The notes under the pieces are model-generated. The model had not been told where the DNA came from. It saw only the letters and a program-made list of their open reading frames with translations, and did no database searches. From contig QKYT01000363.1 of NCBI GenBank assembly GCA_003550305.1, positions 95,553 to 116,943 on the forward strand: a DNA stretch of 21,391 bases, read 5' to 3'. The translations under genes were made by a program, and so were the position numbers. Numbering within the stretch: position 1 is the first letter of the stretch; each line of letters opens with the position of its first letter. Shown piece by piece: positions 5,811 through 20,440 of the stretch. Origin of the DNA: Glomus cerebriforme (taxonomy: Eukaryota; Glomeromycota; Glomeromycetes; Glomerales; Glomeraceae).

Positions 5811-8800
5811 TTATTTTTCCTGCTCTATGGAATCAAATAATTCCTGAATCTTATTATCTGTTTTTGATCTATATGGTGAAAGCTCTGGTGCGCCTTTATT
5901 TCCGAAAACAGTACCGTTATATAGCCGACGATTAATTTGATATGAGAATTGTCAAACTTGTTGTCCTTTAGGCCCTATTCTTTTTTTATTACTTTTAACA
6001 GTATATCTACACCAATTACCAGCAATTGCATTAATTGCTTTTATAGCTGAATTAAGATCTGGTGTTTCTTTTGCATGAGATTTAAAGCCAAAGAGCAATA
6101 AGAATTGATTTCAGATTTCTATAAATCTTTCACATGATTGGGTAAATGCTTCTGAAATAATATTACTCGAAAAAGTACACATATTATCAATTCCAGTAAA
6201 ACCTAATATTTGAAAAAGTTCCTGTATCGCCTCCCACTGTTTAGATAAATATGCTTTTCGTAAATCAATTAAAGATGAATCTGAGAGATTATGCTGTATA
6301 GCTTCTTTAGTTTTTAACACTTTCAAAGCTTTTATTGCATTTGAACCTTGCCTTCAGAAATATGCCAGTCTTTTAAAATGTCATAAAGTTTCAGGATTAT
6401 TAAATTTTTTTACAAAATTAACATTGCAGAGATTAATCTATTTGACGTCATCTATACTCCAGTCCCGATTATCATCCTTACCTCCAATATCTTCTGAAGC
6501 ATATATTCTCTATAAATAATGTCATTGCAATATCATATTATCAGTGAATGAGCATGTAGGAATTTGTTTAAGAATTTCAGCATCATCCAGAAAAATATCA
6601 GGTGTATTGGATATTAATTCTGCATCGGAGCCTTTGATATTTTCTTCAACCGCCTTAATAGTATTAGAAACTATTTTCTTATCAGCCATGGTACTTTCTG
6701 CAGAAATAATCTCAAGTGAAGCTTCCGTACTAGAAACAAGACTGCAAAGAATTTTGAAAAAGTACTTAGCTGATAAACATCTCTAATATTCAGTCTCAAT
6801 ATATGTTTCAACTGCCAGAGATGCATCAAGAGCATAACAATCAGCGATTTTATCCCATTTCTGATGTCCTTTACTACTGTTGGTAAATTAATAGGCCTTA
6901 AAGTAGAAAGTTCAGCACGAATAAGATTATGATTTGGCTTTTAGAATACTTCGAAGGACTTTTTGCTATGATATAAAGAAATGATGCATTGTGGACAAAC
7001 CTGAATTTGGTAAAGCATTTGTGCAAAAGTTTCAACATGTACTCCTGTTTTAATATTGCTAATCCCTATAATAGCATCAAAATGATTAGGAATTTCAAAA
7101 GAGATGCCAGCTTTTACAATACTTATGTAAATTATGCAGTCAAAAGAACTCCAGGTAGCATTAATATTAGTGAAATCCTCTTGTCTTTACATTCCATCCA
7201 TTTGGCCAAAATAAACTTGCATTAAAATAGGTGAACTATTAGGTTTTTGCAATACGGAAGCTTGGTCTGCCAAAGCCAGGCTTTTTTACATGATGTTATT
7301 ACAAAAGCAACACGCTTACCTTCTCGGAGCATTTTAAGACCTCTTCTCATGGCCTCTGAACTTTTGTTCAGATCATAAAAAATCTTAACAGTTTCGCCTA
7401 TACGTGGTTGATATTTATTATTGAAAATTCATATATTATTACCTTGATATTGTTTTAAGAAAGTTATAGTGAAGTCATTCGCAAAAGCATCCATAGCCAC
7501 AACATGGTTAGCTGACTTTAACAAATCTCACATAGCATTTTTAGATTCTTGTGCATAAACTCTACTAGACATTTGATGCATAATCACATTTATTTTATCT
7601 AAAATAATTACATATGGATGCCTTCCGTAAAGCTCAATACGATGGGTGCTTTCAACCTGGATGATGATAATATCCCAATCACTTATAGCTAAACTACCTT
7701 TAACTTCTTGATATTGGCATATACGAAGTTCCAAACTCTGTAATATTTCAACTTTAGTTTTAGTCTCATTGCTAAGAGTTTTACGATATGAAATCCAACT
7801 AAAACAAGACAAATCTTTTTTATTTCCAGCTAAAGAAATGAGAATTCCTTTTAAGGCTTTTGTTTTACCCGTACCTACGGGTGAATGAATAAGAGTTGTG
7901 CTATACACAGAACTTAAGAAATCTGGATAAGCTTCTAGAGCTTCTTCCATCTCTTTTACATTAATATTTTTTTCAGACAATTCAGGAAGTAAATGTGATT
8001 TTTTTATAACATTAATTAATCTATCATTCAATTCCCATTTAGGTCTTTCTTTTAGCTTGATTATACCGGATGTTTCTCCAAACGCTAATTCCTTATGATC
8101 AGATTTGTACTGTTTTTGCCAGTAGCATTTAAGTATAAAGCATCCATTGCTTTGAAGAAAGCCATATAACTGATCTTTTTTATGTCTGATATTGCAAATC
8201 GGGCATGCTTCCAATGACCGAGCTTGAAAGTTAATAAATCCCTTTCTAATGTTGCCAACCTTAAACCATCTATATTTTGCGATAACCAAACTAGCTCCTT
8301 TACTCAAGGTGGTTTCATCTTCAATAGGTTGGAACTTCTCTTTTTCTGGCTTTTCAGGAGAAAATGTTTGGGGCCAGATTTCAGAAGCATCTAACTTAGG
8401 CTAAACTAAATAATTTTTTAACTTGCAATATCCTTTCTTGACTGAAGAAATCGCAGGTCTTTTGATTCTATCTTCTTTTGCTGATCCAAGGAGCCGAAGA
8501 CTAAAGCGTGATTTATAAAGATCTATGTCAATGAATTTTGGATATAGTTTTCCAACTCTCTTAGCAACTTTTTTCACAAAATCTCTAAGATCCCTTTAGT
8601 CAATAAAATGGGTATAAGGATATATGATATGCCAACTGCATTTATTAGCATTAGACGAACTAGCTAAAGCAAAAGTATTTAAAATTATGAAATGATTTAA
8701 ATCAGAATATATAATATCAGCACAGGCAATTAAGATTCTGGATAATAAATCTTTGTGAGAAATTTTATATCCATCTAAGAAAGAGAGTTCAGGATTCATG

Positions 8801-17581: not shown

Positions 17582-18935
17582 TTTTTTTTTTTTTTGAAAA
17601 TACAATAAATAAGAATTTTATTATATTTAAAATACAAGATAGTATGTTATATGGCTTGCCATACAAAGTAATAATATTCATGTATCATTTTCCTATTAGA
17701 AAAATACTACCGATCTGCATTTATATGATATAAGTCCTTAAAGTGAGTATTAATAGTTAAGGCCTTCTTAGATACAAACTATACTTTAGTTCTCTCCCAT
17801 ATCCTAGTGCTAAAATTAATAAAAAATTTATTTAATTAATCCACCTAAATCTCCTTTCAAATGAAATACTTTTTATCCAATTTACCTGAATCTTTCCTTA
17901 ATACTATAGATCTTCAAACTAGCATGAAACGTTGATAACTAAGTTTATAGAAACCAGATGCTAGTACTAATCTTCAAAGAAAAGAATATCCTCAGTATAT
18001 TTTAAGATTTTCTAATTAATATGAAATAGTTTAAATAGATTTATAGAAGCCGGCTATTAGTATCAACTTTTAGAAAGAAGAAACTATCTAAAAAAACTAA
18101 TACTAAAACATATAAGAAAGAAAGAATACATTAAATACTTTTATTTCTCCACCCTACAAAGCCAGTTTCTAATGATGTTGTAGATACTCCAAATGAATCA
18201 AGATAACTGCTTACAGTAGACAAAAATAGTTTCCAGAAAAATATTTTTATTTATTATGCAACAAATAAGTGTCAGTGACACATAAAAATTTGCGGATATA
18301 CCCTTTGTGATGTGAAAAATTAGATATCAAAAGCATATTAGTAACAAATCACATGCTTTTCATCTATTAAAATTTGTCATTCAAAAAATTATTCAAAAAA
18401 AATAAGTAGCCAATTTTTGACTAATTGAGCAACTTTAAAAAGCAGTTCTGTGATAAATATCCAACCAAATTTAATAATTTTTTTTTATTTTATTTGTTGA
18501 ATCATAAAGTATANCTGATAAAATTTTCATGTAATATTAATGATAAAAATAAAGNNAAATTTNNAAAANCTTNAAAAATCATGAAATTTTCAATTGATTG
18601 AATTTAAAGTATTATAACACGAAATTTGATTAAGAAAAACCATATTGTGTATTAAGACAAAAATATTTTTCAAACCTGTTTCCATATAAATCTTATATTG
18701 TTTTAATAGATTATAAGTAATTTATTAGATAAATACTNACTGGAAAAATTATTCTGAAGACTTTTTTCGTCTACTGTATATTGTCTCATCTATAACTCTT
18801 ATCTAAAAACCTTTGCTATTAACATATCCTATAGTCTTTCTTTTAAATAGGCCAATTCCTAATGGTATCATCAGACATTTCTCAAAGAATCGAATTGACT
18901 ACTTACATAAAAGATGCCATATTAGTAAGGTTGCT
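17582..18935 (-). mobile_element. family-R retroposon, inverted copy with nested mariner-like MITE
   Basis: Read on the minus strand, Q begins near 18935 and contains ACCATTAGGAATTGGCC. It is interrupted by a DNA transposon (18214-18776) and resumes AAGCAGTTATCTTGATTCA. It then continues through B1 (about 18015-18090), B2 (about 17915-18000) and C (about 17600-17905). It ends ...TTGTATTTTC plus about 15 A (T-run at 17582-17596 on the plus strand). The P module is absent; the 5' limit lies next to a foldback element. The copy points tail-to-tail at the plus-strand copy at 17384. Confidence 0.6.
18214..18776. mobile_element. 563-bp Tc1/mariner-like MITE at a TA site
   Basis: The ends are inverted repeats of about 31 bp with some 25 matches, both starting CAGTAGAC and containing CAGAA at the same place. 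The element is flanked by TA on both sides (18212-18213 and 18777-18778). Removing the element and one TA restores the family-R sequence GA(T/C)A(G/A)TATAAGCAG seen uninterrupted in other copies. No transposase ORF is present, so mobilisation would have been in trans. Eight ambiguous bases lie inside it. The class is assigned from the TA duplication and the inverted repeats only. Confidence 0.8.
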
Positions 18936-18944
18936 TGCCGAAAC

Positions 18945-20184
18945 TAGTGCTCCGAATGGTTCAATTCAGTTTAGTTCTTAGACTGAATGAAAACTTCAGT
19001 TCGGTTCAGTTCCTGGAACCAGAACTGAAAAATTCGGTTCAGATCGAACCAAAACTTAATAAAAAAGTAAAAAATGCGAAAATTTAAATTTGAATAAATC
19101 GGCATGCACTGATCCATAAAACATGAAATATAGCTCATTCGAATCGTCTCAATGAGACGAATCAAATGGTAGTAAAAGCAAAATTCTAGCATTGATATTT
19201 CGTTCGCTATCGATAAAAATGTAAATTTCTTTAAGTACGATTTGCTGATGAAGTATCGATGCTAGAGTCATGAATTTAGTGTCATTCGACGCGTCTTGAT
19301 GAGACGATTCCAAAGAGCTATAAAACGTCAACATTGGATTACTAGAAGAGGAGTAAACTTAACAGTTCCAAAAATTCAGAATTTTAAATTTCAAAAATTT
19401 TAAAATGCTGACTCCGACTTTATATTTGATATTGTGCACCATCCAGTGATCCAAATTTGATAAAACGTAGCTTGTTGGAATCGTCTATTCAAGACGCATC
19501 GAATGGTACTAAAATTAATATTCTGGAATTAATTCATCAATCGCTACTAATGATGTATTAGATAAAAGCATTAGGACACAATTAGCTATTGATATATCAC
19601 TGCTAGAGATCTGAATTTGGTACCATTCGCTGCGCTTTGAATAGACAATTCCAACAAGCTACGTTTTATCAAATTTGGATCACTGGATGGTGCACAATAT
19701 CAAATATAAAGTCGGAGTCAGCATTTTAAAATTTTTGAAATTTAAAATTCTGAATTTTTGGAACTGTTAAGTTTACTCCTCTTCTAGTAATCCAATGTTG
19801 ACGTTTTATAGCTCATTGGAATCATCTCATCGAGATGCGTCGAATGACACTAAATTCATGTCTCTAGCATCGATACTTCATCAGCAAATCGTACTTAAAG
19901 AAATTTACATTTTCGTTAATAGCAAACGAAATATCGATGCTAGAATTTTGCTTTTACTACCATTTGATTCGTCTCATTGAGACGATTCGAATGAGCTATA
20001 TTTCATGTTTTATGGATCAGTGTATGCCGATTTATTCAAATTTTCGCATTTTTCACTTTTTTATTAAGTTTCGGTTCGATCTGAACCGAATTTTTCAGAT
20101 CCGATTCCAGGAACCGAACCAAACCGGAATTTTGGCCGGTTTCGGTTCAGTTCCCAGTTTGAACTGGAACCATTCGGAGCACTA
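18945..20184. mobile_element. 1,240-bp hAT-like foldback element
   Basis: The two halves are inverted copies around 19564/19565. Termini are TAGTGCTCCGAATGGTTC (18945-18962) and its inverse (20167-20184), fitting the hAT end pattern YARNG. Flanks are GCCGAAAC (18937-18944) and ACCGAAAC (20185-20192), an 8-bp duplication with one mismatch. Subterminal DNA on both sides repeats CGGTTCAGTTC-like words, of the sort hAT transposases bind. No transposase is encoded. The mirrored 61-codon ORFs (19149-19334 minus, 19795-19980 plus) simply reflect the symmetry. Confidence 0.85.
19315..19814. repeat. perfect 167-bp inverted repeat within the foldback element
   Basis: Bases 19315-19481 are the exact reverse complement of 19648-19814, compared base by base. 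The central ~165 bp (19482-19647) is itself an imperfect palindrome. Outside this pair the arms (for example 19160-19314 against 19815-19969) are only about 93-94% alike. Confidence 0.9.
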
Positions 20185-20440
20185 ACCGAAACCCATCTGG
20201 CCCAACACGAAATGCTGAAACTTTTATATAGTGTCGAAACTGCAAAACTGCAAAACTGCCAAAACTTGCGAAAATGCCAAAATTTGTGAAATCTTTATAA
20301 TAAGTTTATCCATAGTTTTGGCATAACAAGTAGTAATATTTTATATGAGTTTNGGNATAGTTTNGCCATATAATTCAATAAATTTATATGTAATTGAATA
20401 ATTTATTGTAATTTTTATGTTTATTTAATATTATAATAAA
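20185..20440. repeat. short irregular repeats next to the foldback element
   Basis: Bases 20235-20291 are a degenerate 8-10-bp tandem repeat (AAACTGC / AAAACTGCC / AAAATGCC). About 24 bp around ATAGTTTTGGCATA (from 20305) is repeated directly near 20348-20371, with three ambiguous bases in the second copy. No gene is seen. Confidence 0.5.

Follow-up and report, generated by a model that had tools for sequence, protein, structure and literature searches.

The closest described counterparts of the element considered here are gadMor-hAT-1784 and gadMor-hAT-8043 of Atlantic cod, non-coding hAT-derived MITEs of ~1.33-1.4 kb found at inversion breakpoints; gadMor-hAT-1784 has ~600-bp inverted repeats of tandem 167-169-bp units, some of them inverted (PMC12368964). 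Galileo, a P-superfamily element of Drosophila, shares long and variable inverted repeats, some with internal tandem repeats, and has recruited inner sequence into them, but it has a P-type transposase, direct rather than alternating repeats, and the target GTATTAC, of 7 or 8 bp (PMC4168063). Tm1, a Mutator/Foldback family of root-knot nematodes, is likewise a foldback, and its composite inverted repeats contain short repeats in varying number, but it has 9-bp target duplications, ~14-bp repeats and a Mutator-type transposase (PMC3169594). Transposable elements of R. irregularis and of Anopheles are treated in other reports (PMC11075540 and PMC3442997, respectively). A SPAdes assembly of the species studied here, with 15,087 scaffolds, differs from the assembly that we analysed (PMC6281316).

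Here we describe an insertion in the arbuscular mycorrhizal fungus Rhizophagus (Glomus) cerebriforme which, to judge from its sequence, is a non-coding foldback element of hAT type. It is a single insertion of 1,240 bp with ends TAGTGCTCC..., at positions 18945-20184 of the window, by which we mean the whole 21,391-nucleotide stretch of DNA analysed. Compared by description, it resembles the cod elements in being a non-coding hAT MITE with inverted repeats of ~169-bp units (here 1.24 kb, with half-modules of 169.5 bp on average), so that its nested architecture is already known in kind, and the first-pass annotation was only partly right in calling this nested symmetry unlike that of any standard hAT MITE it knew. 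What sets the fungal element apart from the cod elements, as far as the accessible text describes them, is a ladder of unit numbers with target duplications, co-variation of the two arms, and the occurrence of its module in other superfamilies (PMC12368964). The novel part is this last one, a hairpin module common to hAT- and CACTA-type MITEs. In the open-access literature we found no report of this fungal element or of a module shared between MITE superfamilies, which is a weak negative.

The left terminal inverted repeat (TAGTGCTCCGAATGGTTC, 18945-18962, forward) is 100% complementary to the right one (20167-20184, reverse), and the two are flanked by the target-site duplications GCCGAAAC (18937-18944) and ACCGAAAC (20185-20192), which agree at 7/8 bases. 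Inward of the terminal repeats lie a left subterminal region with GGTTCAGTTC-type repeats (18963-19055, forward) and a right one with GGTTC-type repeats (20074-20166, reverse), the inner limits of both being of our choosing. The short-TIR consensus of hAT elements is YARNG; the ends of our element are of this type, reading TAGTG in most copies and TAGTA, TATTG or TAATG in some. Between 18945 and 20184 there is no open reading frame that reaches 90 aa. This lack of coding sequence, the many copies, the target duplications of 8 bp and the ends of TAGTG type together support a hAT-type foldback, in keeping with the 'foldback hAT-like element' of the first-pass annotation. The element also has the marks of a MITE, namely no coding capacity, TIRs and many copies, and at 1.24 kb is longer than the usual MITE; its arms of 461, 100 and 18 nt per side within 1,240 bp are those of a foldback. 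An Rfam search of 18900-20230 for ribozymes and known RNAs gave seven matches (E up to 1), none of which reached its gathering score; every one was to a microRNA-precursor model, and we read these as models that score any long hairpin. Elsewhere in the window there is an RNA-dependent RNA polymerase gene (PF05183, 9453-12922, reverse strand), present as two overlapping ORFs in different frames that are probably one gene with an intron, and with relatives across Glomeromycotina; the polymerase is 99% identical over its length to one recorded under the name Glomus cerebriforme. An ORF at 7528-8307 (reverse strand) has a weak match to Herpes_ori_bp (E 4e-6), a replication-helicase-like domain.

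The interior of the element is composed of six ~170-bp half-modules of alternating orientation, which make up three hairpins with a period of 339 bp; half-module limits were set by halving the period. Hairpin 1 comprises half-module a (m1, outer arm, 19056-19225, forward) and half-module b (m2, inner arm, 19225-19395, reverse), hairpin 2 comprises c (m3, left arm, 19395-19564, forward) and c' (m4, right arm, 19565-19734, reverse), and hairpin 3 comprises b' (m5, inner arm, 19734-19904, forward) and a' (m6, outer arm, 19904-20073, reverse). There are thus three types in the order a b c / c b a, with mirrored pairs 95% (m1 and m6), 97% (m2 and m5) and 83% (m3 and m4) identical, and different types 58-64% (58% for m1 and m2). 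The six pairings tested, of 15 possible, have 57-97% identical columns vs shuffle maxima of 43-49% (30 shuffles each). The long arms, 19086-19546 and 19583-20043, are 93% complementary across 461 nt and mirror one another about 19564/19565. The arms of hairpin 1 (19129-19201/19250-19322, centre 19225.5) and those of hairpin 3 (19807-19879/19928-20000, centre 19903.5) are in each case 75% complementary, and both centres are 339 bp from that of the middle unit (19564.5). DNA folding of 19086-20043, a check proposed in the first-pass annotation, gave -477.2 kcal/mol vs a mean of -94.9 for 20 shuffles, and single units folded with z-scores of -10.4 (RNA, 19103-19345) and -9.2 (DNA, 19468-19661).

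The architecture described in the first-pass annotation is therefore confirmed as to its mirror axis, its three units 339 bp apart, and its blocks as imperfect palindromes of one consensus, while two of its generalisations did not hold. It had the coordinates of all mirrored pairs summing to 39129; for the arms 18990-19089/20034-20133 the sum is 39123, which shows that the window element does contain indels and that these are balanced only overall. It also gave every half-block a mini-palindrome of the CGTCTC...GAGACG type, and was correct about the six positions (19145-19159, 19292-19306, 19482-19496, 19633-19647, 19823-19837 and 19970-19984) but not about the type, which fails at 19482, where the sequence reads CGTCTATTCAAGACG, and at 19633, where it is degenerate; a search allowing up to five mismatches recovered five of the six and missed 19633. 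The mini-palindromes are spaced 147-190-151-190-147, and this spacing is the same or nearly so across dozens of copies. Hairpin 2 has an asymmetric tip (19529-19600, approximate limits), which lies at the midpoint of the large palindrome, and every one of the 30 complete three-unit copies can be oriented by the surrounding 120 bp (19505-19624).

A search of the genome (112.5 Mb in 1,117 contigs) with the full element gave at least 85 matches, with the best 40 of 481 first-look candidates scored; one copy is often counted on both strands because the element is a palindrome. A degenerate pattern of the left TIR matched exactly at 46+37 places (83) vs 1+0 for its reversed control. We examined 55 loci, consisting of the window element, 38 loci of a first set and 17 of a second (L092 is the same site as L044, and in L078 and L086 the similarity to the element is limited to its end or close to it). 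Three units were found at 31 loci, two at three, one at two and none at two, while 17 were left unclassed as truncated, one-ended or gapped; the three-unit class consists of 30 complete aligned copies and L092, which carries a nested insertion. Target duplications measured at 38 insertions are exact (8/8) in 26, 7/8 in nine, 6/8 in one and 5/8 in two, and random re-pairing of left and right 8-mers, for 32 of the 38, gave agreement at 7/8 bases or more in 2.7% of cases, true partners brought together by chance being counted among them. The target bias of hAT elements is nTnnnnAn. Pooled with their reverse complements, the 26 exact duplications give nTTATAAn and match this bias, T at position 2 being found in 34 of 52 readings in an AT-rich genome; A at position 7 then follows from the symmetry of the pooling.

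The arms of the 30 complete copies do not sort into a left clade and a right clade. No near-fixed base difference separates left from right in these copies, near-fixed differences being confined to five gap columns, of which column 34 is one and the other four lie at the segment edge, and the asymmetric centre is common to all 30. The distance between left and right arms within a copy is 0.0836 vs 0.1045 when arms are re-paired between copies, a value reached by none of 10,000 permutations, and the same holds for transversions only (0.0157 vs 0.0241, 0/10,000). Transversion doubletons fall in both arms of one copy in 6 of 26 cases (0.44 expected), non-CpG transition doubletons in just 1 of 23 (0.39 expected). 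A left arm has its own right arm as nearest right arm in 8 of 30 copies, or 10 of 30 by transversions, and 11 of 45 gap columns are shared between arms, 10 of the 11 coming from the single copy L033. CpG transitions, which account for 937 of 2,514 substitution cells and occur in 140 of 1,234 columns of the 30 three-unit copies, suggest decay of methylated cytosines.

These data are best read as partial homogenisation of the arms by template switching or conversion. The main rival is that the palindrome formed once and decays freely, its arms appearing alike within a copy because the assembler blended them, which we regard as unlikely, if the most serious of the alternatives. Arms that are ~92% alike are hard for short reads, parallel CpG decay can mimic sharing, and the private variants shared between arms are few and unevenly spread. 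However, blending does not readily account for a signal that persists in transversions, or for the lack of near-fixed left/right base differences in copies whose central tips all differ between the two sides.

The hairpin module is not confined to this family. Its ~33-bp palindrome has 553+536 matches in the genome (at most three mismatches) vs 0+0 for the reversed pattern; a near-palindrome can match both strands at one site, so that sites are fewer than 553+536, with ~100 among the matches listed. Among 17 further loci, a sample of the palindrome matches that was read in two sets of 11 and six, the half-module with this palindrome is present in at least three MITE families (F2, F3 and F4) besides the window family (F1). 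CACTA/EnSpm elements are marked by CACT ends and a 3-bp target duplication. Family F2 (L094, L095, L099, L100, L101 and L104, with L110 matching too) measures 533-552 bp, has ends CACTGGTC...GACCAGT(G/A), the right end being CCAGTA in two of six, and is flanked by matching 3-bp duplications in all six (TAA, TAG, TGT, ACC, TTA and CAT); with its CACTGG ends it looks like a CACTA-like MITE. It carries the half-module as an inverted pair, so the two families of one genome are alike in the half-module and unlike in ends and length of duplication; the window element and L095 are 76% identical over 119 bp. F3 (L096-L098) has ends TAGAGCTCC... and duplications matching at 7/8, 3/8 and 8/8 bases, but these loci share flanking sequence and are therefore not independent insertions. 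All three F3 copies sit within a longer stretch of DNA that is in turn repetitive in this genome. F4 (L102 and L103, with related stretches in L105-L109) has ends TAAAGATG or TAAGGATG, and has two modules in most of its stretches and three in L108. Its duplications are 8/8 in L102 and L103, and none was found in L105-L109 with the end patterns used, so that the placement of F4 in hAT rests on the former two. By their 8-bp duplications at a few loci, both F3 and F4 look like hAT-type elements.

Similarity of the module between families far exceeds chance, the window element matching the module loci with E values of 1.8e-20 (L095), 1.2e-22 (L097) and 4e-16 (L102). In a midpoint-rooted tree of ~110 bp of the module, with F4 entered in both orientations and branch support left aside, F1 modules group together and those of F2, F3 and F4 stand apart, and each family thus seems to have its own module lineage. 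Identity between families is 71-83% in the palindrome core, 52-63% in the hairpin tip and 52-83% in the outer part. The core is the best-kept part in five of six family pairs (F2-F3 is the exception), a figure that is biased upward because loci were picked by that core. Palindrome centres lie 147 bp apart in most F1 outer hairpins (window 19152-19977) and in most of the spacings between F4 modules (L102, L103 and L108), possibly reflecting a nucleosome-length constraint, possibly by coincidence; as a rule for the module a nucleosome-length spacing was rejected, since the distance is 151-161 bp in F2 and 108-138 bp in F3. A search of viral contigs with one 33-place pattern gave no exact match, records near the window's genome possibly having been excluded. 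A hAT domain beside a module on contig C572 was also set aside, the module being part of an F4-like copy that lies in sequence common to C572 and C816.

It is conceivable that the module is a small mobile element in its own right, or a functional cassette, and that several MITE families either received it by insertion or captured it. Its occurrence in four or more families that differ in their ends, usually as two or more modules per element, would fit such an origin, as would the conservation of the palindrome in five of six pairs, subject to the bias just noted. We consider it a less than even prospect all the same, and on balance unlikely, in that no free-standing copy with ends or duplications of its own occurred in the sample of matches read. 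Still more doubtful is the fuller proposal that the ~100-bp half-module with its ~33-bp palindrome is an exchangeable cassette, spread across hAT and CACTA elements of this fungus, multiplied within them and kept because it benefits the elements that carry it, for instance by offering a site for protein binding or hairpin formation which aids copying or the escape from silencing.

One-, two- and three-unit copies of the window family are all present in the genome, as the first-pass annotation had proposed to look for. Aligned with one jump to the majority sequence of the 30 three-unit copies, the short forms are missing 677-678 bp (the one-unit copies L080 and L090, and L089, an unclassed locus with one unit and without a right end) or 338 or 341 bp (the two-unit copies L046, L082 and L084). 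Against a period of 339 bp, they thus lack whole periods. The junctions of L080, L090 and L089 lie at mini-palindromes, between 19138-19168 and 19816-19847 in the better-scoring orientation, and those of the two-unit copies lie at three different places. There are thus no fewer than four different junctions, and a single event may account for those of the one-unit copies. In L090, at 243-430, both arms of the one hairpin have by eye the same type of tip, as though one arm had served as template for the other, and on this point the sequence identities give a mixed picture. Two copies have no hairpin, L088 (104 bp, exact duplication) and L083 (115 bp, duplication 5/8), and hold between their ends just sequence similar to the left subterminal region. 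None of the best-scored candidates was seen to have more than three units, L043 with its gap being left out of this count. L043 (3.3 kb) was considered as a longer form and rejected, since its extra length is an N gap and the parts on either side of this gap correspond to overlapping stretches of the reference (51-811 and 677-1240). L092 (2.7 kb) was rejected too, as its extra 1,450 bp seem to be a second TAGTG-ended element nested in the copy. That insertion, at 587-2036 of L092, has ends TAGTGTTTC.../...AGTACTA and GATCTGA-type subterminal repeats, and is apparently another MITE.

We infer that units were lost, not gained. In the opposite scenario the one- and two-hairpin copies would be ancestral and the three-hairpin element would have grown by tandem duplication; the one-unit form is indeed the simplest foldback, and its outer flanks are alike. 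This is improbable, however, as the units of the three-unit element are just 58-77% alike by stretch, which is not what a young tandem duplication would leave, and as each short form can be aligned as two segments of the three-unit element that meet at matching places in two units. That the symmetry itself was created by a collapsed or chimeric inverted repeat in the assembly, a worry raised in the first-pass annotation, is very improbable, for although assemblies do break at such palindromes, and N gaps lie inside the element in L043 and L093 and 1-12 Ns in 15 of the 30 copies, the module order, asymmetric centre and 147-190-151-190-147 spacing recur at dozens of sites, each with flanks and a target duplication of its own, which rules out a local artefact for the architecture while leaving the fine identity of the arms exposed.

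The genome offers candidate sources of transposase. There are at least 143 matches to Dimer_Tnp_hAT (150 of 265 candidates scored), and 27 to Transposase_21, 24 of them above the cut-off, which are putative CACTA partners. We found no autonomous partner with the TIR of the window element. One of the hAT loci, L057, ends in GATCTGTTAGGAACACTA, which is related to the end of the window element, but it was set aside as the autonomous partner since its upstream (5') side falls in an assembly N gap. L057 also carries GATCTGA-type repeats and a related end, like the 1,450-bp insertion in L092. The module was not found in any of the best 30 of the 143 hAT transposase loci (pieces of 2-3 kb, at most five mismatches).

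Taken whole, the explanation that we hold to be very probable is of a non-autonomous hAT-type foldback MITE that is mobilised in trans, loses whole units and copies one arm from the other, and whose module has reached other MITE families. To judge from the ends and duplications, a hAT transposase acting in trans would cut at the element ends and paste the element elsewhere. The interior is probably dispensable for this, since the zero-hairpin copy L088 has an exact duplication, though L088 may have lost its interior after insertion. During copying or repair, the self-complementary, repeated modules may pair with one another, and whole units could then be lost by recombination or slippage between units of the same orientation, either before or after insertion. 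Template switching or gene conversion would copy one arm onto the other, such that the large palindrome stays symmetric. The proposed changes in unit number and the copying of arms derive from the junctions and from arm sharing, respectively. The module may have reached the other MITE families through like recombination or through nested insertion.

Dozens of natural copies of this element give a view of the ways in which a long palindrome stays symmetric and comes to vary in its number of hairpin units in a eukaryotic genome. The unit length of ~169 bp, as in the cod hAT MITE, may be a coincidence or reflect a common constraint. If the cassette were confirmed, unrelated DNA transposons would share an internal part, for which the central domains common to different SINE families offer a comparison, and a selected function of MITE interiors would become directly testable.
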